64,000 nt of DNA from Cyclobacteriaceae bacterium (GTDB lineage: Bacteria > Bacteroidota > Bacteroidia > Cytophagales > Cyclobacteriaceae): contig JAHBTX010000004.1 of assembly GCA_019638395.1 (NCBI GenBank), positions 432,411 through 496,410 of the forward strand, written 5' to 3'. Below, piece after piece: positions 2,877-47,924 of this stretch. Positions within the stretch are counted from its first letter, which is position 1; every line of letters begins with the position of its first letter. The translations under genes were made by a program, and so were the position numbers. The notes under the pieces were generated by a model that saw only the letters and a program-made list of their open reading frames with translations, ran no database searches and was not told the DNA's origin.

Positions 2877-2879
2877 TGC

Positions 2880-26814: not shown

Positions 26815-26916
26815 GTTGTGAGATAAAGAGGAGCCGGAACTTGTAAACCTAAACACGTATGAAGAGTGCGTTCACTATCCTCAAGAATCCGGTCTCCTCA
26901 ATGTTAGAATTGATCA

Positions 26917-27375
26917 TCAGGGACGTAACTTCAAATCAAGCGGTATCGAAAAGGGATAACGTTCCGGTACGCATGAGCTTACGTTGCAGGTCATGTAGGT
27001 TATGTGACCCTCAACGTCCACTTTTGTTTTTTTTGTTTGCAAGGTGATCAGAAACTCCACTTTGCCCTTGTACCACGTGATCTCCATCTCATAGAGTTTA
27101 TCAAAATAAGTCTGCGCATTGCCTTTCTCCTGAATTGACATTATCTGAAAATCCGCTGATGGCGAAAACACAAACTCGGTAGGTTGAGGTCCGCCTTCTT
27201 CTAAATGCTGCGAGTATAAATGCCAACCAGGACGAACATCAGCGTCCATCAATAGACGAATTTCATGGTCAGAAACCCGTTCTGATTTTATCGACCACAT
27301 CACATTAGACGAGCTTTGTCCAACCACATTTATTGTCACGAATAGGAATGTACCCAGCAGCGCAGGAAAGTTCAT
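26917..27375 (-). CDS. Secreted DsbD N-terminal-domain protein
   Basis: A protein of 152 aa from the ATG at 27373-27375, which gives a clean signal peptide (FPALLGTFLFVTINVVGQ). The long upstream extension of the frame is not credible. The mature part matches the DsbD alpha immunoglobulin-like domain: GWHLYSQHLEEGGPQPTEF, then VEGHITYMTCNVSSCVPERY with the characteristic Cys pair. In full-length DsbD this domain hands electrons to periplasmic partners. Here it stands alone without the membrane and thioredoxin parts. The upstream region overlaps the leader of the divergent ATPase gene. Confidence 0.75.
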   Translation of the reverse strand: MNFPALLGTFLFVTINVVGQSSSNVMWSIKSERVSDHEIRLLMDADVRPGWHLYSQHLEEGGPQPTEFVFSPSADFQIMSIQEKGNAQTYFDKLYEMEITWYKGKVEFLITLQTKKTKVDVEGHITYMTCNVSSCVPERYPFSIPLDLKLRP

Positions 27376-27539
27376 AGATTTTATCGGTTGATGCTGCTTA
27401 GTCGCGCTTCTTAGAAAAAACTCAATGTCCAACCGACTTTTTTTTATAGCCGATATGTAAATAATCCAATTTAAATGAAATGACTTGACATAAAGCTCCA
27501 TACTAAATGTATTATCTTCAAGTATAAACAAGGAAGCAA

Positions 27540-29453: not shown

Positions 29454-29499
29454 GATGAAACTGAGTTGATCAATGGACGTAATTTAAAGGCTGAATCGC

Positions 29500-30543
29500 C
29501 TACTGTGATCCAAAACTTAACCAAGCCGAGTCACGCGCCCAACGACTTGCCAGTCTATCCATCCCGATTTGTACCAGTGTCAACCCCATTCCAATTAAAG
29601 GTCCTGGTACCAATGACATCGGAATGGATGCGTACGTCATCACTTGACCGAAGACTTTCAGTTTTCCTTGTGCGCTTGACTTAAACCTGAATCTGGCTAA
29701 TTCTTTTCGGAGCTTTTGTTCTTCTGCCAGGTCAAGTTTGGTCAAGCGCGTCATCCAATCTTTGAATATCTTCCGAAATTCATTTACCTGAGGATCATTT
29801 TTTAACTTCATCAATTCAATTAAAGAAGCGGGCATCGGAAAATGAATTTTACCAGTCGCAAGTTCATCTACAATAATTTGATATACACGTGATGTTCGAT
29901 CCAACTGATCTGCATGGTTAACCTCCTGCACATCATTTTGCTCTATCCTGAAATGTCCCACATCTGATGGTGATGATAACTTTTCCAGTTCAACGGCACG
30001 TAGTTCATTGACCCTAGTGAAAATCAGCAACTCAAGTTCCGGGTTCCACGGTGTTTCATTACCCGTAACCTTCTGGTTGAATCGCATAGACTTGATCATT
30101 GCAAATTGTTCAAGCGTTAAAATTCCTTTTTTTGCAAGTTCCATGGCAATGATCTCATCGTACTGTTCAATAAAATCTTTTTCAAGCATCCAAAGATCAT
30201 CCAGAAGTCGCGCAGTTGACCATCGTTTTGTTCGTTCCGGATCAATAGGATTTGTAAATGTGATGAGACCAAGTGCCTGAAGGGGAGCAAGCCTCATCAT
30301 CGCAGGTTCTTGTGCCAATGCGGGATGTCCATCTTCTTCGTCCTGGATAATTTTATTTGTCGGGTAGAGCAGGAGCAATTGCATCACTTGTTCTCTCAAC
30401 ACTTGATCCGCCCCAATTTTATGTGTGATGGTTTCGTGAAAGGCATACCGGTTTTCAAAATTGAAGGTAATTACCTTTTCGTGAACGGCCTGACAAATCA
30501 ACGCACTTCTAAACGGGTCAAGTAAAATAAGATTTTCATTCAT
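29500..30543 (-). CDS. Unknown 347-aa protein beside defence genes
   Basis: I do not recognise this protein. It begins MNENLILLDPFRSALIC and is mostly helical and charged. Near the C-terminus lies a Gly/Pro/Met-rich hydrophobic stretch (QVMTYASIPMSLVPGPLIGMGL) that could be one or two membrane-inserting helices. No catalytic motif is visible. It is divergent from the protease-nuclease gene and convergent with the ATPase gene, so it sits in the middle of a probable conflict module. The hydrophobic tail after a soluble domain would fit a membrane-acting effector, but this is speculation. Confidence 0.65.
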   Translation of the reverse strand: MNENLILLDPFRSALICQAVHEKVITFNFENRYAFHETITHKIGADQVLREQVMQLLLLYPTNKIIQDEEDGHPALAQEPAMMRLAPLQALGLITFTNPIDPERTKRWSTARLLDDLWMLEKDFIEQYDEIIAMELAKKGILTLEQFAMIKSMRFNQKVTGNETPWNPELELLIFTRVNELRAVELEKLSSPSDVGHFRIEQNDVQEVNHADQLDRTSRVYQIIVDELATGKIHFPMPASLIELMKLKNDPQVNEFRKIFKDWMTRLTKLDLAEEQKLRKELARFRFKSSAQGKLKVFGQVMTYASIPMSLVPGPLIGMGLTLVQIGMDRLASRWARDSAWLSFGSQ

Positions 30544-30856
30544 TAGTATATAAGGAGTAGGGTTGCGGTAAACAAGATAAGATTCCCAAATCTATCGCAC
30601 AACCCAAAAACCCATAACATGGATTATCTCATTTCTTTCGCAGCATTTATTTTTAAATTCTTTTTAAATGTGTGTCTTCACCAGACGGGAAGTTGAAGCG
30701 TAGGTTTCTGATACCCCTTAACACAAAATAAATATTCCATTTTTCAAGTTGCGAAATCAGCAATTCTCTTATCTTGTTTTCATAAACCAATTCATACTCC
30801 TGACGCAGGAGCATAAATGTGGTTTGCCTTCATTTTCCCCATCAACCCCACTACGT
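30544..30856. promoter_or_regulatory. Divergent control region between the 347-aa gene and the protease-nuclease gene
   Basis: These 313 bases have no credible gene. They are AT-rich in the middle and must hold promoters for both outward genes. A frame starting from TTG at 30749 runs through the right part into the protease gene. I reject it as the start because an ATG with a sensible basic N-terminus occurs at 30857. No clear operator palindrome was found. Confidence 0.4.
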
Positions 30857-33061
30857 ATGGATAAAAAGTCAAGACGTCAGGACCTCCGTGAACTTCGTCT
30901 TCAGTTAGAAAGCAAAGCTGCTGATCGCTGGAACAAACGGCAGGAATTCAGGAAAGACCCAACAGCCTACCTGCAAAAAAATGTTCTCGAACGAATGAAG
31001 ATGGAACAACGATATGCCAACTACAATCAGCGCGAACTCAAAATGGCTCCCGTCGTGTTAACAACATCGTTGGAGTCCGCCCGAACGTTTGAACGTAAAA
31101 TCGGAGATACCTTAGATCTCAGTCGAAGGCCAACCTCAGCAGCTGCTTATAAGTTTGGCAGACCGGTCGGAAGAATTTTTCAAGTTCCTGATCCCGGTGT
31201 GGAGATTGACGCCTTCGGAACCGGATTTTTAATCGCTCCCAATCTGCTACTGACCAATCAACACGTTTTCCCTTCAGTTCAGCATGCTTCCGGTTGCGCA
31301 GTCAACTTCGGTTATGAATATGATGAGTTCAATAAACTTCAGATGGGGACAAAGTTTATACTTTCGCCTGATAAATTTTTTCTTTGTTGTGAACCCCTTG
31401 ACTTTGCTATTGTTTATGTGGAATCCATGGATGATCGCAATAGCACCAACTTATCTGACCTCGGGTTTATTCCGCTCATCGCAACTGCCGGAAAAGTAGT
31501 GCTAAACGATCCCTTAAACATCGTACAATATCCACTCGGTAAGTTCAAGCAATACTCCACCATTAACAACCTGGTCAAGGATATCCTCGAAGCAGAGGGG
31601 TTCATCCAATACACCACCGATACACTGGAATCTTCCTCCGGTTCCCCCGCAGCCAACAAACATTGGGAAGTGGCCGCAGTACATCATAGCGGTATCGCCA
31701 TGACCGTGGACGGAAAAGTTTGGAGTAAATTCAATAGACCGTGGGATCTCTCCATGTCAGATGAAGATAAAATCTACATCGCTAATGAAGGAGTCAGCAT
31801 CAGCCGCATTGTGCAATACCTGGAACAAGTGCAACTAAATTCTCCCGCAGAGCAAGCCCTGTTGAACACAGTGCTCACCAACAGCGTGGATAAAGTACTT
31901 GAAAATTCCCCGGTGATATCAGTCACCGAATCTGGCACAGCTAAAATCCCAACTTCGTTATCACCCATTCCCTTACCTGAATCCGCTATGAACAACTCCA
32001 AAAGCCAAAACGTTTTCAATTTCTACAATACCGCACACGTACAGATTATTACCTCAACAGATTCCAACGCGGCTAGTATTCACGCATCGGTAACTCCGCA
32101 GCCAACCCAACCAAAAGGTTCGGCCGCGCAGGAAAAAAAGCTTCGGTTTGATGAAGTGTATAGCAACCGCAGGTCAAAAGGATATAAGCCCAACTTCCTC
32201 GGTATAAAAATTCCAACTCCGGAAGTTGCAAACAGTCGCCTGAAAGAAATCTATTGTAAACCAGAAGGCGTACCATTGATTCTGAAGTATTACCATTTTT
32301 CACTCGTGATGAATGCAACCTTCAGACTCCAGATGTGGAGTGCTGTCAATGTGGACTATGACCCCGCGCTTAAAACATCGCGCGATCGGAAAGAATTTGG
32401 AAATGAAGCCAACTCATGGCGCCTTGACCCGCGCATCCCGGAAGAAATACAAATCACAGACAGTGAATTCTACAAACCCGCCACACAGGTGGATCGCGGC
32501 CACATGGTACGCAGAGATGATAGCTGTTACGGGCAGACTGAACTGGAAATAGAATATGCCAATTCAGATACCTTTCATTGGACAAACTGTACACCACAAC
32601 ACGAAGGCTTCAATCAATCCAGACAATATGGAGTTTGGGGGATGTTGGAAAACGCCATTAAAGAAGGACTCTCCTCAGAGGATACCAAAGCATCCATTTT
32701 TGTCGGACCCGTGTTGATCGCGGATGAAGATCGTATTTATAAAGATATTTATTACCCGGTAAAATTCTGGAAAGTGGTGGCCGCACTTGATGATAAAGGT
32801 GAATTGCGGGCTTACGGGTTTATGCTTGATCAGACTAAGATTGTAGATAGACGGGGACTGGAAGCCAAGTTTGATTTCACCAAGTTCAAAGCACAACAAA
32901 TGTCGCTAGCCAGGATTGAGAAAGAAGCACAGATCGTTTTTCCCAAAGTACTCAAGGACGCAGATGTGCTGACGCGCAACGGTCGCGGTGAAGAGGTGAT
33001 TGAACTGGAGAGCAAAGACAACGTAGTCATCAACGTGAAGAAAAGTAAAAAAGAATCTTGA
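30857..33061 (+). CDS. Trypsin-like protease fused to DNA/RNA non-specific endonuclease
   Basis: A protein of 734 aa from the ATG at 30857. It has a basic helical leader (1-90), then a trypsin-fold protease: GTGFLIAPNLLLTNQHVF (His136), EPLDFAIVYV (Asp182) and TLESSSGSPAAN (Ser263). After a low-complexity linker (about 350-430) comes a NUC/EndoG-type beta-beta-alpha-metal nuclease: VDRGHMVRRDD (His549), HWTNCTPQHEGFNQSRQYG (metal Asn577, Asn586) and a following WGMLE. No signal peptide is seen, so it is probably cytoplasmic. The order suggests a zymogen-like effector in which the protease part could sense or release the nuclease. The next gene begins within 15 nt. Confidence 0.88.
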   Translation: MDKKSRRQDLRELRLQLESKAADRWNKRQEFRKDPTAYLQKNVLERMKMEQRYANYNQRELKMAPVVLTTSLESARTFERKIGDTLDLSRRPTSAAAYKFGRPVGRIFQVPDPGVEIDAFGTGFLIAPNLLLTNQHVFPSVQHASGCAVNFGYEYDEFNKLQMGTKFILSPDKFFLCCEPLDFAIVYVESMDDRNSTNLSDLGFIPLIATAGKVVLNDPLNIVQYPLGKFKQYSTINNLVKDILEAEGFIQYTTDTLESSSGSPAANKHWEVAAVHHSGIAMTVDGKVWSKFNRPWDLSMSDEDKIYIANEGVSISRIVQYLEQVQLNSPAEQALLNTVLTNSVDKVLENSPVISVTESGTAKIPTSLSPIPLPESAMNNSKSQNVFNFYNTAHVQIITSTDSNAASIHASVTPQPTQPKGSAAQEKKLRFDEVYSNRRSKGYKPNFLGIKIPTPEVANSRLKEIYCKPEGVPLILKYYHFSLVMNATFRLQMWSAVNVDYDPALKTSRDRKEFGNEANSWRLDPRIPEEIQITDSEFYKPATQVDRGHMVRRDDSCYGQTELEIEYANSDTFHWTNCTPQHEGFNQSRQYGVWGMLENAIKEGLSSEDTKASIFVGPVLIADEDRIYKDIYYPVKFWKVVAALDDKGELRAYGFMLDQTKIVDRRGLEAKFDFTKFKAQQMSLARIEKEAQIVFPKVLKDADVLTRNGRGEEVIELESKDNVVINVKKSKKES

Positions 33062-33075
33062 AAGCTACACTTACC

Positions 33076-34176
33076 ATGAGACGTAACATAGTAATTTTCT
33101 TTTTAGGATTAAGTTTGAGTTGTCACGGCCAGCAATCAGATAAGTCGTTTGGCATTCAAAACTATTCACAGATTAAGGCCCTGGATTCTGTTCATCAGAA
33201 TATGATGGCATACCTCCCTTCATACTCGCGAAAATTTTACGAGTTTCACATCCCCTCGGTTATTAATGGTGCCAACATTGACCCCAGCCCCGTGTCTGGC
33301 TTCAACGCAAACTTTACAGAAAGCAAACTCACGGCTAAAGTAGGATTCCCCATGTTAAAGAAAAAAATTAATGATCTGGTGAATACGTTTTACCTGAGCG
33401 TGAGCGCTAAAGCAGCAAATGGCGTAGCAACCGTTTGGAAAACCACAGGCACACCTGCCGAGATTACCTATGCCGGTGGCTATACCAGAATTGTGGATCA
33501 CCGGTATTACACACTCACAACTTCTGGTGATAAGACCACGGAAGTGGTGCAATGGATCACGCTAAGCGGCTCATGGGCTACCAATAACTATAACCTCTTT
33601 GATGCCGCTGCACCTTTTGACAACATCAAATCAACAATCACCACCAATAGTTACAACGTGTTTGTTTCGTTCAATCGGTACTTTCATTCTGAAATTATGC
33701 CTTTCAAATTAATGAACGTCATCGTGTCGGTGGGCGGAGGATATGCCCGTACCAATAACTATAGTTCTTTGAAAAAGCGTAATTATGAATTTGGCACCAC
33801 CATACCCGGCCCCGGTGGTTTGTACAAATCGGTGAATGAAACCGTAGCCGGTGCCATTGGTGATTTTAGAAACTATGAAGGGCTAACTTACTACGTGGAA
33901 GTTTTCAAAGCCATTGTCAAAAGTGATTATTGGGGATCTATCTACTGGGGCGGTCGGCTGACACATTATGGCGTGGGTAACAAAGAGTATATCATCAATG
34001 GTGTCACCGGTCCCTATTTCAGTTTAAAAGCGGGAGACAAAGATCAGCGCAAGGATGCCTTGAGTTTTTCGGTGACCGCACAGTATCTCCAACTCAATGC
34101 GTTTGGTGAAAAAGATTATCTGGATGATAACTTTTCTATTGTGGTTCAGACCGCGGTGCCTATTCGGATTAATTAG
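33076..34176 (+). CDS. Secreted beta-barrel-like protein, partner of the protease-nuclease
   Basis: A protein of 366 aa from the ATG at 33076; a TTG at 33058 overlapping the upstream stop is possible. The signal peptide (NIVIFFLGLSLSCHGQ) also resembles a lipobox around its Cys. The mature part alternates polar and aromatic residues in beta strands (YYTLTTSGDKTTEVVQWITLSG, SIYWGGRLTHYGVGN) and ends with a strand terminating in RIN. This suggests an outer-membrane barrel or barrel-like protein. It is not recognised further. The spacing to the protease-nuclease gene implies one operon, yet one product looks cytoplasmic and the other exported. Confidence 0.65.
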   Translation: MRRNIVIFFLGLSLSCHGQQSDKSFGIQNYSQIKALDSVHQNMMAYLPSYSRKFYEFHIPSVINGANIDPSPVSGFNANFTESKLTAKVGFPMLKKKINDLVNTFYLSVSAKAANGVATVWKTTGTPAEITYAGGYTRIVDHRYYTLTTSGDKTTEVVQWITLSGSWATNNYNLFDAAAPFDNIKSTITTNSYNVFVSFNRYFHSEIMPFKLMNVIVSVGGGYARTNNYSSLKKRNYEFGTTIPGPGGLYKSVNETVAGAIGDFRNYEGLTYYVEVFKAIVKSDYWGSIYWGGRLTHYGVGNKEYIINGVTGPYFSLKAGDKDQRKDALSFSVTAQYLQLNAFGEKDYLDDNFSIVVQTAVPIRIN

Positions 34177-34295
34177 AACTGAAGAAGTACGCGTGAGTTT
34201 TTCAGAATGTGTCCCGGGTCTGTGCCCTCTTATTTTTTAAGGTGTTGGCCATTCCTTGATGATGGCAACAACAGCGTTCCGGTAAATGTAAAATT

Positions 34296-34928
34296 ATGAT
34301 TGTAGATACCATGAATGCGCTTGAGATCCGGAAGGCATACCTGAAAGACCTTGAGCAGCTTCGCCCTATCATTCAAAGACGAATTCAGTATTTGACCAGA
34401 TCGTTTCTTAAAAGTGGAAAGCAATTTTTTCAGAAGCCAAGCCTTTATACTATAAATCAGAATCACTATATAATCAACTATATCCTTAACAAGTCTGTTG
34501 GCGCATTCTCCGTTCATTGGCACTACATAACCAATTCCAAACAACCTTATTTTCTGGCCAGCATGTCCACTCATAACCAGGAGCATTACTACATTAAGGT
34601 TGATGCTCATGCTATACTGCGGTATATCAAGCGGACACCAGATTATTTACCTACTGACAAAGAGGCGTTTGCCAAAGAAGCTATAAACATTACCAGTGAG
34701 TTAGCTTTCCCGGTTCCGGTCGAAGCCAACTATATTAGCCCCGAAGGTCTATGGCCGCTGGAGCATCAGGAGATTGTCAATGGATTCCTACATGTTAAGA
34801 CTTTCATTCATAAAAGTATGCTCAACAACCGACAGCGGGAAATCTACAAACGGGGACTGTTGGGTATTTCACCGGATGCAATACCACTCTATTTGCAGAG
34901 TCTGGAAGAATTTGGGGTGGTTCGCTGA
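34296..34928 (+). CDS. Hypothetical protein, 210 aa
   Basis: Not recognised. It is a mixed alpha/beta soluble protein with a conspicuous central segment (HNQEHYYIKVDAHAILRYIKR) that places His, Lys, Asp, His and Arg close together. A basic C-terminal helical region follows (NNRQREIYKRGLL). An ATG at 34311 would shorten it by five residues. It lies 119 nt after the barrel-like protein gene on the same strand and may belong to that unit. It could be an RNA- or DNA-acting enzyme, but no known motif is present. Confidence 0.6.
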   Translation: MIVDTMNALEIRKAYLKDLEQLRPIIQRRIQYLTRSFLKSGKQFFQKPSLYTINQNHYIINYILNKSVGAFSVHWHYITNSKQPYFLASMSTHNQEHYYIKVDAHAILRYIKRTPDYLPTDKEAFAKEAINITSELAFPVPVEANYISPEGLWPLEHQEIVNGFLHVKTFIHKSMLNNRQREIYKRGLLGISPDAIPLYLQSLEEFGVVR

Positions 34929-35195
34929 ATCACATTACCAATCACCAACGGGGATTACATATGACTTCAATCGAAAAGGGAGAGTTATATCGAATCATAA
35001 ATGAGATATAAATGTGTTTTCTGAATTGCTGACCTTTATTAATCCGTGATAAAAGAAGTTTATTCAACTTAGTTGTTAGAAAAATCTCCCTAACCTTCTA
35101 AGCTGCTTTTATTTAATGTTATTATTTCCTCCTCGGGTAGGGAACAAATAAACTCTCGAAATTGTGATTCATGATATTCATGATTTGAGTTGTAT

Positions 35196-35480
35196 TTACT
35201 TCTCATCTATCAATTCCTCAAATTTTGCTAATAATGCAAATAAATCAGTTTTTTCTTTTAACGAGCAAATTGAATTGTTAATCGACTCTTTAATCAATAT
35301 TATTAATTCGTGAATAGCGGTCGGGAAACTGGTTAGGCTTTCAATCTGTGCCTGCTGCACAGGGTTTGGACTTCCAATACTCAATGTCTCAATCAAATTC
35401 ATCAATTTGATTTTTACTGATTCATGAGGGCATTCCTCATTACGAAGAAGAAATAAGATTTCTTGCAGAAGTATTTCCAT
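35196..35480 (-). CDS. Small helical protein at the end of the AIPR operon
   Basis: A protein of 94 aa from the ATG at 35478-35480; a GTG at 35507 would add 9 residues. It is all-helical and Leu/Ile/Glu-rich (EILLQEILFLLRNEECPHESV, LIILIKESINNSICSLKEK) with no known motif. It lies 66 nt downstream of the AIPR gene on the same strand, so it is the last gene of a four-gene unit. It could be an antitoxin-like or assembly subunit, judged by size and place only. Confidence 0.6.
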   Translation of the reverse strand: MEILLQEILFLLRNEECPHESVKIKLMNLIETLSIGSPNPVQQAQIESLTSFPTAIHELIILIKESINNSICSLKEKTDLFALLAKFEELIDEK

Positions 35481-35546
35481 AAAATAGTTATTTAATTGGT
35501 ATGCCACTCAATACGAAACCCGATCAATGGCTGTTGAATTAAGCTA

Positions 35547-37220
35547 TCATTTTATTGAAGACTTTAGGTCTCGACATTTTGTATAGTTTCTCAACACATA
35601 AACAATCATTGAATCAGGATACTCGTCTTCGATTTTTTCGTGCAAGGCCTGTATGTACTTTTCAGCAAGTCCGGGCAAGTCATTTTTATAAAATTGATCA
35701 AACCCAGTATTTGTATCGGCCAGAATCTCCCTCGGCATTTTACAAAAGATGATATGACTCACAAATGAATTTCCGTAACGATATATGCTTTTTTCTCTTC
35801 CCTCAGCACTAAGAGACAGTTCATTCATCTTATTGGAAACATAACGATAGATCTTAACTGCTTTCATTATCTTTTGCGCAGATATGTTTGGATTGAATAA
35901 ATCTGTGTAAGGTGGTTTTGTGACATCTTCCCACAGTCTACCTGATTCCTTTTTGACTAATGTAGAGTAGTCAACATTTTCCCAGAGTGAAGCTAAACTA
36001 AACGCAACCTCTTCCAACAGATAATTATTATCGTCTGAAAGCACTTTCTCATCGGTTCTTTTGTAATGGTAGTCGATGTTTTCCAATTTCAGCTCCAATT
36101 TTATGCGAGCTTGTTCTCCATCAAGTGAAACAAAGTCCTTTTTTTCGACCTTGTTTTGAGTGTTTGTGGCAATAGTGATTCGTTGACCGAAGCCGGCTGG
36201 GCTATCCTCAAGAGAAATAAACTTCACAAGTACCTTAATTTTACCAAGTTCATTTGGGTTTGTTGCCGATAGTGAACCTATTGAACCTAAAGTCTGTGCT
36301 CCATTTACAACCGAAATTCCGTTGCAAGTAAACGCGCCAATTGTTTTATCGCTTCCACCAATAGGTTTCTTTTTTATGCTATTGCAAAGGATTGTGATTC
36401 CATTATTGAAGTACGTAAAATTATCAGGTTCGGTCTTTATGGTCTTAACGATTTCATCATTCACTGATGACATCCCTAGAAAATTTCTGATGTTCTCGGT
36501 AAAGAGTTTACGTCCGTATTTTTCCCAGAGTATTCCTAGATCCGTGCCGTTAATTTGTCCATAGTAAGATTTGAGTGGTTCTTCAATGTGTCCCCAATTG
36601 GATATTAAAATGTCTTCGTTTATTGGGGCAAAGCCAACCCCTGTTTCCAGTCCCTTATAGGCCTTGTCAATATTAAAATCGTTGAAGAATAGGATTTCTT
36701 CTGTGTCGTTGTGTTCAATCACTAAATCATTAATGGATGCCTTATTGTGCGATGACAACGCTTTTCCAGTGTAGGCAATAATGATTTGAATTTTTACAGA
36801 GGCATCATATAGAGCTTCAATTATTTCTTCCTGTTTAGATTTAACTTTCTCGTTGAAACGTGAAAAATCTGCATCAATTAATTTTTTTACTCCTTTTGTA
36901 AATTTTTCAACATCACCATTATCAATCCCTCCCGCACCATTTTCAATAAATTTGGACTGAACAAGCCAGAGGTTCCTTGATTGCCTATCAAGGAAAATCG
37001 CATCGATTCCGTTGTCTTCAAACCCATCCGTTACCGCAATCGCTGCATCTAAAATACTTGTGCCCGCAACAATTGTTAAGCTATAGGCTGCCAGCGCCCT
37101 CGAAAGAAAGTTCTTCTGCTTGTCATCGTCAGAAACTTTTACCAAATCGGAGAGATCAATCTTGTCCTTGAATGTCTTATCAAGGTAGGATTTAATTCGG
37201 TTTACAATTATTTTACTCAT
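35547..37220 (-). CDS. AIPR-family (abortive infection phage resistance) protein
   Basis: A protein of 557 aa. The N-terminal Mrr-like part has GFEDNGIDAIFLDR and LWLVQSKF (Asp73, Gln88, Lys90), a D...QxK version of the PD-(D/E)XK active site. The central AIPR block is clear: KLFTENIRNFLG, FTYFNNGITILCNS, SVVNGAQTLGSIG and ITIATNTQNKVEKKDFVS. AIPR proteins are linked to phage abortive infection and often accompany restriction systems. It is third in a minus-strand operon after the DUF6602-like and YejK-like genes. Confidence 0.88.
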   Translation of the reverse strand: MSKIIVNRIKSYLDKTFKDKIDLSDLVKVSDDDKQKNFLSRALAAYSLTIVAGTSILDAAIAVTDGFEDNGIDAIFLDRQSRNLWLVQSKFIENGAGGIDNGDVEKFTKGVKKLIDADFSRFNEKVKSKQEEIIEALYDASVKIQIIIAYTGKALSSHNKASINDLVIEHNDTEEILFFNDFNIDKAYKGLETGVGFAPINEDILISNWGHIEEPLKSYYGQINGTDLGILWEKYGRKLFTENIRNFLGMSSVNDEIVKTIKTEPDNFTYFNNGITILCNSIKKKPIGGSDKTIGAFTCNGISVVNGAQTLGSIGSLSATNPNELGKIKVLVKFISLEDSPAGFGQRITIATNTQNKVEKKDFVSLDGEQARIKLELKLENIDYHYKRTDEKVLSDDNNYLLEEVAFSLASLWENVDYSTLVKKESGRLWEDVTKPPYTDLFNPNISAQKIMKAVKIYRYVSNKMNELSLSAEGREKSIYRYGNSFVSHIIFCKMPREILADTNTGFDQFYKNDLPGLAEKYIQALHEKIEDEYPDSMIVYVLRNYTKCRDLKSSIK

Positions 37221-37285
37221 TTTTTGGTGGCCTTGCGTTGTATCTTAAACGAATACTTTTAGTGATTTTTTTAAATATAAAGTTG

Positions 37286-38335
37286 TTAAGTTTGTTTTAC
37301 AATCACCATTTTTCGAATCTGTCCTTTGTTGATTTGAGGTTCAAGCTCTTTTATCGTTTGTTTACTCGGGCCTTCAATAATCTCAAGTGAATCAAGTTCT
37401 GATGTACTTCCAACGATCGTCATCGTATATGCAAGTGGGATAGAAATCCGTTGTAGTTCCAATCTACTCTCTATAAGTGATATGTCTTTGGTAAACGACA
37501 AGGGATACCGTTCATTGACTATTTTTTTCTCGAACTTCGCCTTTAGTTCTCCTTCAAAATACTGGTCTGAAAATTCTTTTGGAGAAATTAGTCCCTTTGT
37601 ATCCTCACGATACAATACGTTAAGCGCTTTTATTAGACCGAGTCTATCATGGACATCGTCGACATTTGCTTCGATGAAAACTTTAGTGTCCTCATAGAAA
37701 TTCTTCGCTTTAAGTCTATCGTTTTTGTCTGTAGTGAGTCCTAAAAAAGTCCCATAGAAGTATTCCGTCAAATCCTTTTTTTGCAATGAGAATTGATCAT
37801 CATACATAAACGGAATAAAGCTATTTCCTCCCTCAACGAAAAAACCAATCTTGTAGAAGTCTTTTGCTGGAGAAAGAAAGACGTCCTTAATAAGTGTAAG
37901 TTCATTATTGTTTACATTGAACACCTCTTGCAGTTCTGCCTTTATTATAAAAAGGAAAAATCTATTTGTTGAGGTTACCCCATTCCCAATAAGGCAATAT
38001 CCTCCTGGAATCTTTGTTCTAAAGTGAGCGTCTGCTAACGAGTTAGCCAATGAAATTGAAGATGATATAAACTGTTTGTCAGTTTGCTTTTTGATTGTTT
38101 TCAAGAGGTGATAAATGCTATCCTCTGATTTATCCTCATAGTCTAACTGAAACGTTTTTGTTGTATTTTTTAATGCTCCAAGTATTCTGTCGACCAAAAT
38201 ATCCTTTTCAGCTTTTTTAAATCGCAGGAGTGCAGAATTAGTTTTGGCAATTGCGTCTTTTTCTTCGGTTTTTGCATGAATCTCGTGGGCAATTATGCGG
38301 TCGATGCTTGCAATTTTAAAAGTCGAAAAATTCAT
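37286..38335 (-). CDS. YejK/NdpA-like nucleoid-associated family protein
   Basis: A protein of 349 aa. The start (FKIASIDRIIAHEIHAK) and the later part (SISLANSLADAHFRTKIPGG, then CLIGNGVTSTNRFFLFIIKAEL) follow the pattern of the 37-kDa nucleoid-associated family (PF04245). That family is typified by E. coli YejK, a DNA-bound protein of unclear role. The middle shows KIGFFVEGGNSFIPFMYDD. Its start overlaps the stop of the DUF6602-like gene by 4 nt (ATGA), so the two are translationally coupled. In this setting it may recognise or coat DNA for the linked nuclease-like proteins. The family call is moderate. Confidence 0.65.
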   Translation of the reverse strand: MNFSTFKIASIDRIIAHEIHAKTEEKDAIAKTNSALLRFKKAEKDILVDRILGALKNTTKTFQLDYEDKSEDSIYHLLKTIKKQTDKQFISSSISLANSLADAHFRTKIPGGYCLIGNGVTSTNRFFLFIIKAELQEVFNVNNNELTLIKDVFLSPAKDFYKIGFFVEGGNSFIPFMYDDQFSLQKKDLTEYFYGTFLGLTTDKNDRLKAKNFYEDTKVFIEANVDDVHDRLGLIKALNVLYREDTKGLISPKEFSDQYFEGELKAKFEKKIVNERYPLSFTKDISLIESRLELQRISIPLAYTMTIVGSTSELDSLEIIEGPSKQTIKELEPQINKGQIRKMVIVKQT

Positions 38336-39207
38336 ATTTTATGGAAGTTTGAAATGGAGAAATCGAAGATGTTTTTTGTGTACTCGCGTAGATCGGGTGG
38401 AGAGACAACTACATTGTTTAGGTGCTCAAGTATTAGCATATACTGGTATGTAAGTACATTGTTTTCTCCCTGTAAGTCCATTAGGACCCATATATTGGGC
38501 TTGTCTTCAAATTCTGGATAAAGATTAATTGTTATTTTGTTATTGGTAAAATCGTTTTCATTGACATTCACAATGATACCAGCGTCTAAAAGCACAATAA
38601 AGTTTGGCAGGTTTCTGTTATCTGATGTCGATAAAAACCTATTAAGGTCGTCAAAGGATGCTGCCGAAGAATTAACAAAGAACAGAAATGATAATATTGG
38701 ATTTCTGTATGGTAAATTAGTTACTGGCTCCTCAACATGAAATCCAGATGTTGAAGTTTCGATAAAATTTCTGGCAATCCTTTCTCTTTTAAGTTCTGCT
38801 TTACTACGCTCTATGTTTTGAGAAAAGTTTTTTATTATGTTTTTGTCGTAAAATGATTTTTTAACTTCTCCGAAACAATAAACGGTTTCATAAAATACTA
38901 TTTCCGATTTGTCGGCAAGGTTAAAGAGAACGGGATTTTTTGAGTTTTCACAAATGATTATATCAAACTGCGGGCTTACTTTTAAGGAGCTATCTACAAT
39001 ATGCCCGTCACACACGTGATACTTCGGAAACAGTTTTTCTTTGTAGAAATTTTTTACAGACAATTCAATCTCATCGCCGGCGGCTCTTAAATTTTTCAGG
39101 TCAGTTCTGATACTGTCCGACAATCTGTAAGCCATCTTAATTTTTTCCAAGTCATGTTGGAAATATTTATGAAGTGGTATTTTTTTAAAGGGTGTAATCT
39201 CGTCCAT
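38332..39207 (-). CDS. DUF6602-like protein with PD-(D/E)XK nuclease signature
   Basis: A protein of 291 aa. Residues 45-120 match the DUF6602 pattern: GDEIELSVKNFYKEKLFPKYHVCDGHI (split here as GDEIELSVKNFY and PKYHVCDGHIVD), SPQFDIIICEN (Asp82), then YCFGEVKKS (Glu114, Lys116). E...D...ExK is the active-site order of the restriction-endonuclease fold. It is the first gene of the four-gene operon and overlaps the YejK-like gene. It is likely a nuclease effector or sensor. The family assignment is by pattern memory. Confidence 0.7.
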   Translation of the reverse strand: MDEITPFKKIPLHKYFQHDLEKIKMAYRLSDSIRTDLKNLRAAGDEIELSVKNFYKEKLFPKYHVCDGHIVDSSLKVSPQFDIIICENSKNPVLFNLADKSEIVFYETVYCFGEVKKSFYDKNIIKNFSQNIERSKAELKRERIARNFIETSTSGFHVEEPVTNLPYRNPILSFLFFVNSSAASFDDLNRFLSTSDNRNLPNFIVLLDAGIIVNVNENDFTNNKITINLYPEFEDKPNIWVLMDLQGENNVLTYQYMLILEHLNNVVVSPPDLREYTKNIFDFSISNFHKI

Positions 39208-39408
39208 CTATAGTTTTGCGCCCTTGCATTTAAAGAAACAATCTAATCTGAGTCCTCGAGGTTAAATCTAACATTTCCCACCATTTCAGGAAGTGAAAAC
39301 GCAAGTCAAAATTTTATTTGGTGCGGACGGACTATGGATATAATGTTCAGTGGAAGGCTTGAGCTCCCTGCACCACACGTTGATGGCATTAATAATAGAG
39401 CAGAACAC

Positions 39409-39660
39409 TCAATGAATCGGAATCTCCGGTATGCAATCCAAATACGGTTCCAACTGTGAGATATTTTTAAACACCCGTAATCCTTCAATCCGATTGGCAG
39501 GTTGTGAATACCTGATCTCCACAAAAAAGTTGTGACAGCTATAGAGATTGAAGGCCATTCCTTCAACAACCCTCGAAATCAGAAATACCCCATGTTCCCA
39601 AACGTAGGCGTACTGGTGCGATTCTGGCAATGCATTGAATTGATATATACCTCGGGCCAT
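39409..39660 (-). CDS. Small conserved-looking hypothetical protein
   Basis: A protein of 83 aa starting MARGIYQFNALPESHQYAYV. It is a compact alpha/beta protein with FLISRVVEGMAFNLYSC and FVEIRY strands, a style seen in small uncharacterised Bacteroidota mobile-element proteins. Its ATG lies 2 nt after the stop of a 58-aa membrane peptide gene, which supports translation of both. The function is unknown. Confidence 0.6.
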   Translation of the reverse strand: MARGIYQFNALPESHQYAYVWEHGVFLISRVVEGMAFNLYSCHNFFVEIRYSQPANRIEGLRVFKNISQLEPYLDCIPEIPIH

Positions 39661-39662
39661 AG

Positions 39663-39839
39663 TTATGAGTTTTGTGGTCTTTTATCAGCGGGTGGATTCA
39701 CCAACTCAAGCCATTCTTGCTTTTCAACCGTACGCCCTACCACATAGCCCACTGAGAACCCGGCACTGATGCAGGCAATGATGACACACACCATAAGCCA
39801 GAATCTTCGTTTTGCCTGAACGGCCGATGTCGTTTTCAT
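39663..39839 (-). CDS. 58-aa single-pass membrane peptide
   Basis: The ATG is at 39837-39839 and the stop at 39663-39665. The sequence opens with a basic tail (MKTTSAVQAKRRFW), then one membrane helix (LMVCVIIACISAGFSVGYVV), then a polar tail ending NPPADKRPQNS. It is encoded immediately before the 83-aa protein with a 2-nt gap, so they form a two-gene unit. No family is recognised. Confidence 0.6.
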   Translation of the reverse strand: MKTTSAVQAKRRFWLMVCVIIACISAGFSVGYVVGRTVEKQEWLELVNPPADKRPQNS

Positions 39840-39928
39840 TATGAATCTGGGAATTTGAAGTTCACAAAAGGAAGATCGCCAAATTAGGTCAATATCCCAA
39901 CGGGTGCGATGAATAGGTATTTTATCAT

Positions 39929-39988
39929 CTCATATTATGAGGTAATTATTTTACAATGCGATGAAAAATTTTCATATTTGTCGCATTA
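39929..39988. promoter_or_regulatory. Palindromic operator candidates before the Fic gene
   Basis: Just upstream of the Fic start are a 13-nt palindrome, CTCATATTATGAG (39929-39941), and a nested inverted repeat: AATGCGA at 39955-39961 with TCGCATT at 39981-39987, and TGAAAA/TTTTCA inside it. The Fic protein has a C-terminal HTH-like region, so autoregulation is possible. Confidence 0.45.
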
Positions 39989-39998
39989 ATTGCGGTTA

Positions 39999-41120
39999 AT
40001 GAGTCATTATATCCATTTACGGTCCAACTGGCCAGATTTTCATTGGAATGCAGAAAGTCTTCTGGAGCCACTTGCTGCCTTGCGCAGCAAGCAGGGCCGT
40101 CTATTGGGTAGCCTGGAAAACCTTGGTTTCAAACTAAAAGCGGAGGCTAACCTCCAAACCCTTACCGTTGATGTTGTCAAATCAAGTGAAATAGAAGGTG
40201 AGCAACTTCCTGAAGACCAGGTGCGATCATCCATTGCCCGCAGGTTGGGATTGGATGTGGCGGGCGTGACGGTCACCGACAGAAATGTGGAGGGTATAGT
40301 GGAAATGATGCTGGATGCCACCCAACACTATAATATAGAGCTTACCCAAGACCGGCTTTATAGCTGGCACTCCGCCTTGTTTCCAACCGGCCGGAGTGGG
40401 ATGCGAAAAATAGTCACGGGTATGTGGCGTGATGATGCGGAAGGTCCCATGCAGGTGGTCTCTGGTCCCATGGGCAAAGAGCGCGTACATTTTGAAGCTC
40501 CCGCGGCTTTTCGGCTGGAAGAAGAAATGGAAAAATTTATAGTCTGGTTTAACAACCCCGGCACCATAGATCCGGTGTTGAAGGCAGCGGTTGCGCATCT
40601 ATGGTTTGTTACCATTCACCCCTTTGATGATGGGAACGGACGAATAGCCCGGGCCTTGACGGACCTTCAGTTAGCACGGGCTGACGGCAGCAAGCAACGT
40701 TTCTATAGTATGTCTGCGCAGATCCGAAAAGAACGGAACCAGTATTACGAGGTGCTTGAAAAAACACAACGGGAAACGCTTGATATCACTGTGTGGCTGC
40801 TTTGGTTTATTGCCTGCCTGGATCGGGCCCTGGATGCCTCTTCGGAATTACTATATGGGATCAAAAGAAAGGTTGTATTCTGGCAGGCCCATCAACAAAC
40901 TGACTTTAATGAGCGGCAACGAAAAATGTTAGGGTTGTTGCTGGATGAAACGCTGGTTGGAAAGTTGAACAACTCTAAATGGGCAAAAATGACTAAGGTA
41001 TCCAATGATACGGCCTGGCGTGACATACAAGATCTGCTAGGTAAAAATGTATTAGTGAGAGCAGCCGGAGGCGGACGAAGTACGAGCTATGAAATCCGGT
41101 ATCCGGATGTTGGTCGTTAG
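39999..41120 (+). CDS. Fic-family protein (DUF4172 type, class II inhibited)
   Basis: A protein of 373 aa from the ATG at 39999; a TTG 9 nt upstream is unlikely. The N-terminal DUF4172-like part (YIHLRSNWPDFHWN) is followed by the inhibitory helix motif SSEIEG (about residues 62-67), matching [S/T]xxxE[G/N]. The Fic core is HPFDDGNGRIAR (catalytic His207). The C-terminal part (WAKMTKVSNDTAWRDIQDLL) is winged-helix-like. Fic enzymes usually transfer AMP from ATP to a protein hydroxyl, and class II members are held off by the internal Glu. The target is unknown. Confidence 0.93.
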   Translation: MSHYIHLRSNWPDFHWNAESLLEPLAALRSKQGRLLGSLENLGFKLKAEANLQTLTVDVVKSSEIEGEQLPEDQVRSSIARRLGLDVAGVTVTDRNVEGIVEMMLDATQHYNIELTQDRLYSWHSALFPTGRSGMRKIVTGMWRDDAEGPMQVVSGPMGKERVHFEAPAAFRLEEEMEKFIVWFNNPGTIDPVLKAAVAHLWFVTIHPFDDGNGRIARALTDLQLARADGSKQRFYSMSAQIRKERNQYYEVLEKTQRETLDITVWLLWFIACLDRALDASSELLYGIKRKVVFWQAHQQTDFNERQRKMLGLLLDETLVGKLNNSKWAKMTKVSNDTAWRDIQDLLGKNVLVRAAGGGRSTSYEIRYPDVGR

Positions 41121-41190
41121 TTTTAGTACAGAGTCCTAGTACGTAGTCTTTAGTAGGTAGTCTTTAGTACATCGTATATAGTCGTTGTTT
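41121..41190. repeat. TAGT/AGTC-type intergenic repeat, second copy
   Basis: The region is built from units such as TTAGTACAGAGTCCT, TAGTCTTTAGT (present twice in near form) and TAGTAGGTAGT. The 15-mer at 41123-41137 is identical to 22708-22722 in the chromosome. TAGTCTTTAGT also matches, in reverse complement, the block near 60660. Confidence 0.7.
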
Positions 41191-41281
41191 AGTGCGTGAT
41201 TCATACCACGGTTGAGCAATAGGGCCAGGACAAATTTGTATTCTAAAAGACGGACGATTAATTTTCTATTGCCAATACTTT

Positions 41282-41300
41282 TATCTCATAAAACGAGATA
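41282..41300. promoter_or_regulatory. Operator candidate of the type I RM locus
   Basis: TATCTC and GAGATA arms (6 bp, 7-nt spacer) lie 44 nt upstream of the small XRE gene that heads the restriction-modification operon. An inverted repeat at this distance from an HTH gene is a plausible autoregulatory site. Confidence 0.4.
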
Positions 41301-41343
41301 CGCAACAATTTAAAATTTATCTTAGCCGACTCATTCAAACGGC

Positions 41344-41535
41344 ATGAACCGAATTAAAGAAGTGTTGGAAGAAAAAGGAGTAAAGCAGACTTGGTTGGCT
41401 GAACAACTTGGAAAGAGTTACAACATGGTCAACGGCTATGTGCAAAACAGACAACAGCCAAGACTTGAAGTACTTTTTGAAATTGCCGAGATATTAGGAG
41501 TTAAACCAAAGGACTTATTAAAAGATAGAAAATGA
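41344..41535 (+). CDS. Small XRE-family HTH regulator of the RM operon
   Basis: A protein of 63 aa, a complete Cro/C1-type HTH and little else: [35 protein letters not shown] and [12 protein letters not shown]. Its stop overlaps the hsdM start by 4 nt (ATGA). Proteins of this size act as controllers of restriction-modification loci, delaying or limiting expression. Here it probably controls the whole prr-like operon. Confidence 0.9.
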
Positions 41536-43667
41536 CTAGCACAGCGCAGAGAGCAGAATTACAAGCAAAAATTTGGAAAATAGCCAACGATGTTCGTGGC
41601 TCAGTGGATGGATGGGACTTTAAACAGTTTGTGTTAGGAGCACTTTTCTATCGCTTTATTAGTGAAAACTTCACCAATTATATTGAAGGTGGTGATGAAA
41701 GCATTGACTATTCAAAATTATCAGATGATGTAATAACATCTGAAATAAAAGATGATGCCATTAAAACCAAAGGGTATTTTATTTATCCTAGTCAGCTTTT
41801 TGTCAAAGTCGCTGAAAAAGCCAATACCAACCCAAATCTTAACACGGACTTAAAGGCCATTTTTGACGCTATTGAAAGTTCTGCAAATGGTTATCCATCC
41901 GAACCAGATATAAAAGGATTGTTTGCCGACTTTGACACAACAAGTACACGACTTGGTAATACTGTTGAAAGCAAAAACGCTCGCTTAGCTGCCGTTTTGA
42001 AAGGTGTTGAAGAACTGAATTTTGGAAATTTTGAAGACAATCAGATTGACCTTTTTGGTGATGCCTATGAATTTCTCATATCCAATTATGCAGCTAATGC
42101 AGGAAAATCGGGAGGCGAGTTTTTTACGCCACAGCACGTATCAAAACTTATAGCACAATTGGCAATGCACAAGCAAGACAAAGTGAATAAGATATATGAC
42201 CCTGCTGCTGGTTCTGGCTCCTTACTATTACAGGCCAAGAAGCATTTTGACAATCATATTATTGAAGAGGGTTTTTTTGGACAAGAGGTGAACCACACTA
42301 CTTATAACCTTGCTCGTATGAACATGTTTTTGCACAACATAAATTACGACAAGTTTAATATTGCCCTTGGCGATACGCTTCGTAATCCACACTATGGCGA
42401 TGAAAAACCATTCGATGCCATTGTTTCTAATCCTCCCTACTCTATAAAATGGATTGGTGACGATGACCCAACGCTAATTAATGATGACCGCTTTGCACCT
42501 GCTGGCGTGTTGGCTCCTAAATCAAAAGCAGATTTTGCCTTTGTACTTCATGCACTAAGTTATCTTTCAAGTAAAGGAAGGGCAGCTATTGTTTGTTTCC
42601 CTGGCATTTTTTACCGTGGTGGTGCAGAACAGAAAATCAGAAAGTATTTGGTGGATAACAACTTTGTTGAATCCGTAATTTCTTTAGCTCCTAACCTATT
42701 TTACGGTACATCAATTTCTGTAACCATTCTTGTGCTTTCAAAACACAAAATAGAAAACAGAACGCAGTTTATTGATGCTAGTGGAGAAGATTTCTTCAAA
42801 AAAGAAACGAACAACAATGTGCTTAATGATAATCACATTACAAAAATTATGGAAATCTTCGACTCTAAAGAGGACAAAGAACATATTTCTAAATCAATAG
42901 ACAATTCAAAAATTGCAGGAAACGATTACAACCTATCTGTGAGTTCATATGTAGAAGCAAAAGACAATCGAGAGAAAGTTGATATAATTTCCCTAAATCA
43001 GAAGATTTGGGAATCAGTAGATAAAATAAATGGTCTGCAAACAAATATTGATGCATTAATCAATAAAATTTCAGATTCAGGCTCAATCACCAAAATGCTA
43101 GAAGGTGTGCCGGTAGAATGGGAAAATTTGGATAAAGTAACTAGCGTTTTGCGAGGTAGAAGATTAACAAGAGAATTACTATCTAACTCCGAACAATATC
43201 CTGTGTTTCATGGTGGATTAGAGCCATTGGGATATTATTCTTCCTTTAATCGACCAGCTAATTCAGTAATGATAATAAATGTTGGAGCCTCCGCTGGAAC
43301 TGTTGGTTACAGTTCTGTAGATTTTTGGTCATCTGATGGTTGTTATAGTATTGAGCATTCGGATAAGTTAAACAGTAAGTTTCTGTATTATTTTCTACTT
43401 GGCGAACAGCACTTTCTGAAATCAAGAGTAAGAAAAGCTGGCATACCAACATTGGATGCATTTGTAATTGAGAAAATTAAAATACCAATTCCCTATCCTG
43501 ATGATAAAGGAAAATCTCTTGAATTTCAAAAAGAATTAGTTCAGAATTTAGACACCTTTTCAGAGCTTACAGCAGAGCTCACAGAAGAGCTTACAGCTCG
43601 TGAAAAGCAATATGAATATTATCGAAATTTATTATTAACCTTTCCTAAAAATGGTATAGAATCATAA
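41532..43667 (+). CDS. hsdM: Type I RM HsdM methyltransferase fused to a single-TRD HsdS half
   Basis: A protein of 711 aa. It opens with an HsdM N-terminal helical domain ([21 protein letters not shown]). The methylase carries the SAM site [13 protein letters not shown] and catalytic motif NPPYS (N6-adenine), with [14 protein letters not shown] ahead of them. From about residue 500 the sequence becomes HsdS-like: [19 protein letters not shown], one target-recognition domain, and a C-terminal coiled-coil spacer ([20 protein letters not shown]). Normal HsdS proteins are separate and carry two TRDs. A single TRD would need dimer pairing to read a split, probably symmetric, site. Confidence 0.9.
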
Positions 43668-43668
43668 G

Positions 43669-44802
43669 ATGGGACAGTCGTTGATACAAATAGCTCAGAA
43701 CTTAAGAGCGGCAACACATATAAGACAAGCTGTTGCGGAAAGAACGCTTGATGTGAAAGTGCAATTAATTTATGCTTTTAATGGTACAGGTAAAACACGA
43801 TTGTCCAGAGCATTTAAAAATTTGATTGCACAAAGAGAAATTGTAGCTGATGAACAAGTACCAACTGAGGAATTTGAGAAGATTCTTTATTACAATGCAT
43901 TTACAGAAGACCTATTCTATTGGGTTAATGATGAATTAAAACTAAAAATTCAAAACAACCTATTCACAGACTGGATTCTAAAAGATGAGGGCCAAGACCA
44001 AAATATTGCATCTAACTTCCAGCGATATACTAATGATAAATTAACCCCCAATTTTGATGAGAATTTTACAGAAATACAGTTTTCGTTTGAGCGTGGAAAT
44101 GATGAACAACCAGAAAATGTAAAAATTTCAAAAGGAGAAGAAAGCTGCTTTATTTGGAGTGTTTTCTACACATTATTGTCTCAAGTTATCGATGTTTTAA
44201 ATGTTGCTGAAATAGCTGAACGAAGCACAAATAAATTTAATGAGTTAGAATGGGTATTCATTGATGACCCTGTAAGTTCATTAGATGAAAACCACTTGAT
44301 TGAGCTTGCTGTAGATATTGCAAAAATGATAAAAAGAAGTCGCTCGAATTTAAAATTCGTAATTACTACTCATAATCCTCTTTTTTATAATGTACTTCAT
44401 AATGAGCTAAGAGATGAGCGGTACAAGAAACATCTGTTAAAAATATTAGAAGACGGAACATTTGAATTAGTTAATCAGCCACATGATTCACCCTTCTCAT
44501 ATCATCTTTTCCTAAAATCAGAAATTAAAAGAGCAATTGATTCTGGTCAATTGAGTAAATACCACTTCAATTTTCTCAGAAACATTTTAGAAAAAACATC
44601 AACATTTCTAGGGCATCAAAATTGGGGAGACCTTTTGCCAGAAAGAACACCAGGAGAGCGTGATGCTTATTGGTCACGAATTATCAATCTTTCAAGTCAT
44701 TCAAAAAATGCGAACGAAGAGGTATTTGATATAACGGAAAATGATAAACGTGTTTTAGGATATTTAATGGATAATACTAAAATTTTTGAGTTTTTCAAGT
44801 AG
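43669..44802 (+). CDS. prrC: PrrC-type anticodon nuclease
   Basis: A protein of 377 aa; the E. coli enzyme is ~396. The N-terminal ABC-type ATPase has [19 protein letters not shown] (Lys42), [33 protein letters not shown] and [20 protein letters not shown], then [12 protein letters not shown]. These stretches follow the PrrC sequence as I remember it. The C-terminal nuclease has Arg304-x3-Glu308 (RNILEK) and His344 (LSSHSKN), matching the order and spacing of the E. coli Arg320/Glu324/His356 triad. PrrC cuts tRNA-Lys in the anticodon loop when phage inhibits the linked restriction enzyme. It is encoded between the M-S and R genes, as in prrABCD. Confidence 0.88.
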
Positions 44803-44813
44803 TAATACATCAA

Positions 44814-47800: not shown

Positions 47801-47924
47801 ACTCAATGCACTTTTACCGAAAATGAGTCCGTTAAATCCTCAGTACTTGACCAAGAAGCAAAGTGTTTTTCAAAAGTTAGTTTCGTTTGTAGAGAAGTTT
47901 AAGGGAGTTGGTGGCCAACTATAA
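44814..47924 (+). CDS. hsdR: Type I restriction endonuclease subunit R (HsdR)
   Basis: A protein of 1036 aa. The N-terminal PD-(D/E)XK nuclease has [10 protein letters not shown] (Asp155) and [10 protein letters not shown] (Glu169, Lys171). The motor has a Q-motif region, Walker [18 protein letters not shown] (about 311-327), DEAH in [13 protein letters not shown], and FTGTPIF. Motif V-VI lies in [23 protein letters not shown] and [10 protein letters not shown]. The C-terminal helical domain contacts the methylase. It translocates DNA and cuts when complexes collide. It is the last gene of the operon, 11 nt after prrC. Confidence 0.95.

Follow-up and report, generated by a model that had tools for sequence, protein, structure and literature searches.

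A predicted NucC-like nuclease gene overlapping a YejK/NdpA-like gene in a Cyclobacteriaceae genome: a candidate abortive-infection module

The locus and a recurrent overlapping gene pair

The stretch of DNA analysed here (the window; 64,000 nucleotides of contig JAHBTX010000004.1 from a Cyclobacteriaceae bacterium, assembly GCA_019638395.1) contains four closely spaced genes on its minus strand. In order, these encode a DUF6602 protein, a nucleoid-associated-type protein of the YejK/NdpA-like family (NA37), an AIPR protein and a small open reading frame (ORF) (Table 1). The first three match PF20247 (E = 1.1e-17), PF04245 (2.6e-6) and PF10592 (7.3e-36), respectively. The DUF6602 and NA37 genes overlap by 4 nt, and gaps of 65 nt and 66 nt follow, the latter when the ATG at 35480 is taken as the start of the small ORF. 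An earlier note, made from the letters of the window, had described this arrangement and had pointed out D82, E114 and K116 in the DUF6602 protein and D73, Q88 and K90 in the AIPR protein as candidate active sites. The ORF calls agree with the arrangement, and both sets of residues are in place and conserved in relatives. Motif alignments and the PF04245 match also support its view that two PD-(D/E)xK-type proteins are encoded together with a nucleoid-associated-type protein. The description of the DNA as AT-rich holds relative to the left flank, because the G+C content is 33-37% in the four genes versus 41-46% in the eleven kilobases at 24001-35000; however, on the right, the G+C content of the restriction genes (41001-48000) is equally low, at 32-38%.

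The G+C content by codon position is similar across all four genes. No terminator-like sites are found between them, and none in the whole of 34900-40000, where 2.9 are expected. Promoter-like sites are not above chance (19, compared with 16.8 expected, standard deviation 3.7), and there is no match to Rfam in 34000-41500.

The first two genes recur as a pair. In an uncultured Aquimarina (locus L113), a DUF6602 gene is located directly upstream of an NA37 gene with the same 4-nt overlap, and no AIPR gene is present. The overlapping pair therefore occurs in two distant genomes (n = 2, the window and Aquimarina). The two DUF6602 proteins are 35% identical along the chain. The window NA37 protein is 22-41% identical to its aligned relatives, and the Aquimarina protein is the closest found, with 39% identity by tblastn and 41% when aligned. 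Because the window and Aquimarina proteins are sisters in both protein trees, with support of 0.999 for DUF6602 and 0.998 for NA37, the pair looks co-inherited.

The start of an integron cassette is the reverse complement of its end, which is known as the attC R'/R'' rule. The 8-kb Aquimarina contig carries an array of units parted by related repeats (five units, 1027-7958). In all five units, the first 8-10 nt, counted from GTT, are the reverse complement of the unit's own end, compared with 3-6 nt in 20 crossed pairings. The unit with the DUF6602 and NA37 genes, for example, starts with GTTGTGGGTA and ends with TACCCACAAC. The array appears to be of the integron type, as judged from the unit ends on this short contig. 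Because the two genes fill one unit, the DUF6602-NA37 pair probably needs neither AIPR nor the small ORF to be complete.

No named defence system matches the pair in a PADLOC scan, in which the NA37 protein has no hit. The literature that was searched, in which subscription papers and bioRxiv preprints are thinly covered, contains no described DUF6602-NA37 module and no mention of DUF6602, nor of AIPR together with nucleoid-associated proteins and defense. It also contains no paper that joins three of the terms NdpA, RelA SpoT, abortive infection and nucleoid-associated protein.

Table 1. Features of the locus and its surroundings, with positions in the window
Feature	Position	Strand	Remark
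Predicted DUF6602 / NucC-like PD-(D/E)xK nuclease gene	38332-39207	-	291 aa; gene 1 of two-gene module
NA37 (YejK/NdpA-like) protein gene	37286-38335	-	349 aa; gene 2 of two-gene module
AIPR gene	35547-37220	-	557 aa; probably a separate defence gene
Small ORF	35196-35480 (ATG, 94 aa) or 35196-35507 (GTG, 103 aa)	-	no relatives found in collected loci
Stop/start overlap ATGA of the DUF6602 and NA37 genes	38332-38335	-	4 nt; also in the Aquimarina pair
Asp82 codon of DUF6602 protein	38962-38964	-	aligns with NucC Asp73
Glu114-Val115-Lys116 codons of DUF6602 protein	38860-38868	-	align with NucC Glu104-x-Lys106
AIPR motif stretch	36951-37004	-	Asp73 37002-37004, Gln88 36957-36959, Lys90 36951-36953
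DUF4172-Fic protein gene, SoFic-like by PADLOC	39990-41120		right of locus
Type I restriction system (HsdM/S, HsdR)	41344-47924		right of locus
PrrC-like gene (PADLOC 2e-131)	43669-44802		between HsdM/S and HsdR; small helix-turn-helix gene in front
Gene for a protein with nucleotidyltransferase and HEPN domains	48155-49012		adjoins restriction system
Trypsin-like peptidase and DNA/RNA non-specific endonuclease in one protein	30749-33061		followed by a 372-aa ORF without family
MobC-like and relaxase genes	60678-62299
tRNA-Leu	23172-23254		shared with same-family genome G049 (L149)

The DUF6602 protein and NucC

NucC is the effector nuclease of type III cyclic oligonucleotide-based antiphage signalling systems (CBASS) and of some type III CRISPR systems. 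It is activated by a cyclic trinucleotide and serves as a model for suicide nucleases. The window DUF6602 protein matches two PADLOC models of NucC effectors (1.4e-12 and 3.5e-8) and a PD_DExK model (2.3e-18). Searched as a single sequence against the PDB, it matches the solved NucC structure 6uxf at 1.1e-4, with residues 32-123 covered. A profile of the window and Aquimarina DUF6602 proteins finds five NucC sequences with E-values from 2e-9 (6uxf) to 4.6e-4, and the match spans profile positions 21-154 at most.

D82, E114 and K116 line up with the active-site stretch of NucC (Table 1) and are conserved in the Aquimarina protein. In an alignment of 43 DUF6602 proteins, all 43 have the aspartate and the lysine, and 36 have the glutamate. 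This alignment comprises the window protein, L113, L136, L138 and 39 of the 40 genes fetched from 395 sampled genomes of the phylum. This sample has 43 DUF6602 places, and the 40 are what is left after subtraction of the window's own and of two that were not fetched (G098 and G221); one gene that is cut by a contig end (L084) was dropped from the alignment and from the table of neighbours.

The predicted structure of the DUF6602 protein, built from a four-row alignment, has a mean predicted local distance difference test score (pLDDT) of 63.6 and a predicted template modelling score of 0.68. All 14 PDB matches of this model at E <= 0.001 are NucC chains, with E-values from 6.5e-12 to 1.4e-9 over about 267 columns. 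Sequence comparison, supported but not independently confirmed by the model, marks the protein as a predicted NucC-like PD-(D/E)xK nuclease. The earlier note's DUF6602-like nuclease is correct as to family and can be given more exactly as NucC-like. The idea of a nuclease unrelated to known effectors was rejected on the NucC matches among PADLOC models and PDB sequences and with the model.

Other DUF6602 genes have other surroundings. The window's genome has a second one (435 aa; contig 12 of G000, 51887-52189; 6025-7332 in L100), which belongs to another branch of the tree. Type I restriction genes adjoin DUF6602 genes at five phylum-sample loci (L087, L104, L110, L111 and L112) and on an Acetobacter plasmid (L152), and are a second recurrent setting of this nuclease family.

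The positions of NucC that we take to form the pocket for cyclic triadenylate (cA3) are R53, Y81 and T226. All three are kept in 11 of the 43 aligned DUF6602 proteins (L073-L081, L136 and L138, with F for Y in L078 and S for T in L079) and not in the other 32. The window nuclease does not retain this set. In the 43-protein alignment, it and its Aquimarina counterpart have K at the equivalents of both R53 and Y81; the T226 equivalent depends on the alignment, and is S or V in the window protein and G or I in the Aquimarina protein. The change from Y to K is the sole clear-cut one in the predicted pocket of these two nucleases.

A cyclase-like neighbour is found for seven of the nine pocket-keeping genes of the genome sample versus 0 of the 30 other aligned genes, as detected with a profile that was built partly from loci then searched (L077-L079 are three of the seven), and for nine of the 11 keepers overall. 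In L077, the gene order is cyclase (9.9e-140), HORMA (4.1e-67), TRIP13 (3.7e-130) and DUF6602, which is the arrangement of a type III CBASS with its effector. Eight cyclase-like neighbours checked with Pfam (six from genomes, two viral) all match SMODS, five of them above the cut-off. Six viral loci were found in a scan with cyclase-associated DUF6602 proteins. The window operon contains no cGAS/DncV-like nucleotidyltransferase with HORMA and TRIP13, the genes that define type III CBASS, and searches of the window's own genome for SMODS and for the Cas10 palm domain gave 0 matches each (controls matched in 3 of 14 and 5 of 14 genomes). The usual activator of NucC was not found in this genome by these searches, which could overlook a weak cyclase, and the predicted pocket looks altered.

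NA37 relatives, the AIPR gene and the genomic setting

The window NA37 protein matches PF04245 with 27.5 bits (cut-off 24.6) over residues 15-282, and its Aquimarina relative with 45.8 bits; PADLOC has no match to the window protein. An NA37 profile search matches the YejK structure 9be2 weakly (6.1e-4). No PDB entry matches the predicted NA37 structure at E <= 0.001, and 9be2 is not among the 50 matches listed. NA37 matches are present in five of the 395 phylum genomes, the window's own included, and in four records of a plasmid collection. Plasmid searches with the Aquimarina proteins gave these four NA37 records again and 18 DUF6602 records; three plasmid DUF6602 regions that were inspected contain no annotated NA37 or AIPR gene. 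Phage records gave none for NA37 and none for DUF6602.

A scan of species genomes, in which a three-row alignment was applied via two short peptide patterns, found 20 NA37 loci, including two also known under other handles (L126 and L132 are L012 and L013), two that are near-identical (L120 and L122) and one whose contig ends right after NA37 (L125). In 12 of the 20, a RelA/SpoT-domain gene is directly downstream of NA37 and touches or overlaps it as the ORFs are drawn; three of these 12 partners are confirmed by Pfam, and the others were assigned with a local profile of the L007, L008 and L010 proteins. One of the remaining loci, that of Aquimarina, has DUF6602, and seven, L125 included, have neither partner. 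The three RelA/SpoT-domain partners that were scanned with PADLOC match the candidate PDC-S33. In two annotated plasmid records, NA37 overlaps the RelA/SpoT-domain gene by 4 nt, and the Klebsiella one is preceded by a DUF4231 gene. The recurrent NA37-RelA/SpoT cassette resembles a defence module of the nucleotide-signalling or toxin type.

The loci with NA37 followed by a RelA/SpoT-domain gene are L115-L119, L121, L124 and L127-L131 from the scan, together with L007, L008 and L010 (two annotated plasmids and one phylum genome). SLATT-type genes are near such pairs in L008 (DUF4231 by annotation), L116 (SLATT_4 at 3e-8, on the opposite strand) and L130 (below the cut-off). In L011 and L012, NA37 is found directly behind a protein of 601-623 aa, with tetratricopeptide repeats in the L012 copy, in place of an enzyme. 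The window's own genome has one RelA/SpoT-domain gene, in a 751-aa frame. A transcription unit with a YejK domain protects E. coli from phage (DefensePredictor, PMC13092281), and NdpA2, an NdpA protein of an integrative and conjugative element, acts in gene regulation (PMC8565334).

The AIPR protein scores 124.8 bits against PF10592 (cut-off 25) and matches the PADLOC models of AbiU (3.9e-31) and MzaE (1.5e-12). Membership in the MZA system was rejected, given that the NCBIfam MzaE model gives 57.4 of the required 1050 bits. The stretch with D73, Q88 and K90 is kept in all 10 aligned AIPR proteins (the window's and nine others), and the N-terminal stretch has a sub-threshold match to Mrr_cat_2 (0.0045, 17.3 of 22 bits). 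A HEPN RNase at the N-terminus, as stated for AIPR proteins, was also considered for the window protein, and AbiU1/AIPR genes are reported to occur often with restriction-modification genes (PMC3506569).

AIPR matches were found in 19 genomes, and nine loci besides the window have wide flanks (the others 1.5 kb at most). These nine (L034-L042) comprise the four closest relatives in the phylum sample, which are 35-47% identical and one of which is split into two ORFs, and five more distant ones. None has an NA37 or DUF6602 gene at E <= 1e-3 by profile within 10-16 kb; comparison with the single DUF6602 sequence gave two chance-level matches (E = 0.99 in L034 and 0.35 in L039). A more distant AIPR gene (28.8% identical) is carried by a Klebsiella plasmid of 5.6 kb, annotated with six genes, where it adjoins replication, mobilisation and RelE/NadS genes and is accompanied by neither NA37 nor DUF6602. 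A viral scan with the window AIPR protein found no relative. Judged by its sequence relatives, AIPR is probably a separate defence gene beside the DUF6602-NA37 pair. Codon usage in the small ORF is coding-like (+0.098 per codon in its own frame, negative in the other five); the ORF has no family in Pfam, PADLOC or NCBIfam and no relative in the collected loci.

The type I restriction, PrrC-like and Fic genes to the right of the locus make up a setting rich in defence-type genes, and an AAA_15 ATPase gene is present to the left. Synteny with the same-family genome G049 ends at the tRNA-Leu gene (23.2 kb), and that with the same-genus genome G146 ends near 20.5 kb. No direct repeats of at least 20 nt (seed 14) were found in 22500-64000. 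The region is defence-rich and possibly mobile.

Possible functions and relation to known systems

The reading that we tentatively prefer, at somewhat less than an even chance, is that 37286-39207 encodes an abortive-infection NucC-like DNase controlled by NA37, and that the AIPR gene and the small ORF form a second, neighbouring unit. This reading is favoured by the kinship with NucC and the intact D, E and K residues beside altered R53 and Y81 equivalents, by the recurrence of the pair with its overlap, matching trees and integron-type unit, and by the lack of SMODS and Cas10 matches where related NucC-like genes adjoin cyclases. The coupling of NA37 relatives to another enzyme gene in 12 of 20 loci, the phage protection by a YejK-domain unit in E. 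coli and the defence genes nearby also favour it. Most likely, NA37 would bind the nuclease, DNA or both, and would keep the nuclease in check. Infection might then disturb the DNA or the nucleoid that NA37 watches, so that the nuclease is released or switched on. The activated nuclease would cut DNA, and the infected cell would die before the phage matures. We infer the protein-protein interaction, the role of NA37 as sensor or brake, DNA as the target and phage as the trigger, and likewise the direction of control (NA37 might be a brake or an activator) and defence itself.

Several points weigh against a two-gene module with this function. The argument for it is drawn from the window and the single further locus at which the pair occurs among those found; a two-row NA37 profile detected, in 395 genomes of the class, the window's own gene only and so no third locus. 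Viral scans with the window DUF6602 protein, with the NA37 pair and with the DUF6602 pair found no relative. All four window genes may share one transcript. The modest confidence of the DUF6602 model (mean pLDDT 63.6) is a further concern, and its NucC match is not independent because two of its four alignment rows are cyclase-associated NucC-like proteins. The loss of the pocket is suggestive at most, because lysine is a conservative replacement for arginine and the residue under T226 differs between alignments, and the argument presupposes the pocket positions named above. A weak cyclase might have escaped the SMODS search, given that three of the eight cyclase-like neighbours score below the Pfam cut-off. 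The validated YejK-domain unit (PMC13092281) may differ from the pair in its gene content. Finally, the interaction, toxicity and defence activity of the module are predictions from sequence.

An alternative that we regard as unlikely is a toxin-antitoxin-like pair, in which the nuclease is toxic on its own, NA37 is a neutralising antitoxin or an autorepressor, and phage defence is secondary or absent. A two-gene overlapping module within an integron-type unit, as in Aquimarina, would suit such a pair, as would the coupling of NA37 relatives to RelA/SpoT-domain genes, whose fold is known among toxins (toxSAS). However, relatives of NucC are presumably silent until activated, and an antitoxin for one of them would be a new arrangement.

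Two further explanations are improbable, and about equally so. The first is that of the earlier note, in which the products of all four genes work as a single defence system. The common strand, the small gaps of 65 nt and 66 nt, the similar G+C content by codon position and the lack of terminator-like sites between the genes are consistent with this idea, although such sites are also missing from the entire surrounding segment. The set does not recur, however, an outcome that the earlier note had named as refuting its proposal, and no relative with fetched flanks has it. None of the 40 DUF6602 loci has NA37 or AIPR in its flanks (about 6 kb, or less on contigs that end sooner), whether ORFs at contig ends are excluded, as in one count of neighbours, or included, as in another. 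AIPR is likewise missing from all 20 NA37 loci of the species scan, and NA37 and DUF6602 from all nine widely flanked AIPR loci. Among the four families, whose co-occurrence the earlier note had proposed to check, only the DUF6602-NA37 pair recurs, and in Aquimarina this pair fills one unit without AIPR. The AIPR gene of the small Klebsiella plasmid also stands apart from both partners.

The second is that the nuclease is still an effector for cyclic nucleotides, made by an undetected cyclase or supplied as an outside signal, and that NA37 only regulates transcription. The NucC fold, the conservative change of R to K and the S found under T226 in one of the alignments fit this explanation, and the regulatory action of NdpA2 provides a parallel for NA37. 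On the other side, the Y81 equivalent is K in both the window and Aquimarina proteins, whereas R, Y and T are retained in 11 relatives, apart from one F for Y and one S for T; nine of these 11 have a cyclase-like neighbour, and the window genome has no SMODS or Cas10 match.

That two unrelated accessory genes, DUF6602 and NA37, became neighbours by chance is very improbable: each has other neighbours in most loci, but the gene order, the 4-nt overlap and the sister grouping are common to two distant genomes, and the pair is alone in one Aquimarina unit.

A broader proposal is doubtful at present. Perhaps this NA37 subfamily is a plug-in sensor or brake of several unnamed immune modules, one with a NucC-like DNase and others with a RelA/SpoT-domain enzyme, with or without a SLATT-type protein. 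The window would then hold a CBASS-type suicide nuclease that has been freed from cyclic-nucleotide signalling and placed under the direct control of NA37. If so, a protein partner can take over the control of NucC-like effectors, and the poorly understood NA37/YejK family gains a concrete immune role. Two types of cassette for which no name was found, one with a nuclease and one with a RelA/SpoT-domain enzyme, would also be tied together. The DUF6602-NA37 pair is small (about 1.9 kb), portable and directly testable.

Among known systems, AbiU/AIPR abortive-infection proteins and MzaE have the AIPR domain in common with the third protein of the locus, which scores far below the MzaE cut-off. 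YejK/NdpA (PF04245) proteins are the family to which the window NA37 belongs, as a member of an accessory subfamily that adjoins a predicted nuclease in the window and RelA/SpoT-domain enzymes elsewhere. The cassettes of NA37 with RelA/SpoT-domain genes, and in some cases SLATT-type genes, resemble the window pair in their NA37 subfamily and in their tight spacing or overlap. They differ in the partner, which is a RelA/SpoT-domain protein instead of a nuclease. NucC itself has the same PD-(D/E)xK core as the window DUF6602 protein, with D, E and K aligned. In contrast to the solved NucC chains (241-256 aa), the window protein is 35-50 residues longer, and the residues of the predicted cA3 pocket are changed. 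Its gene is coupled to NA37, whereas an adjoining cyclase, HORMA or TRIP13 gene is lacking.

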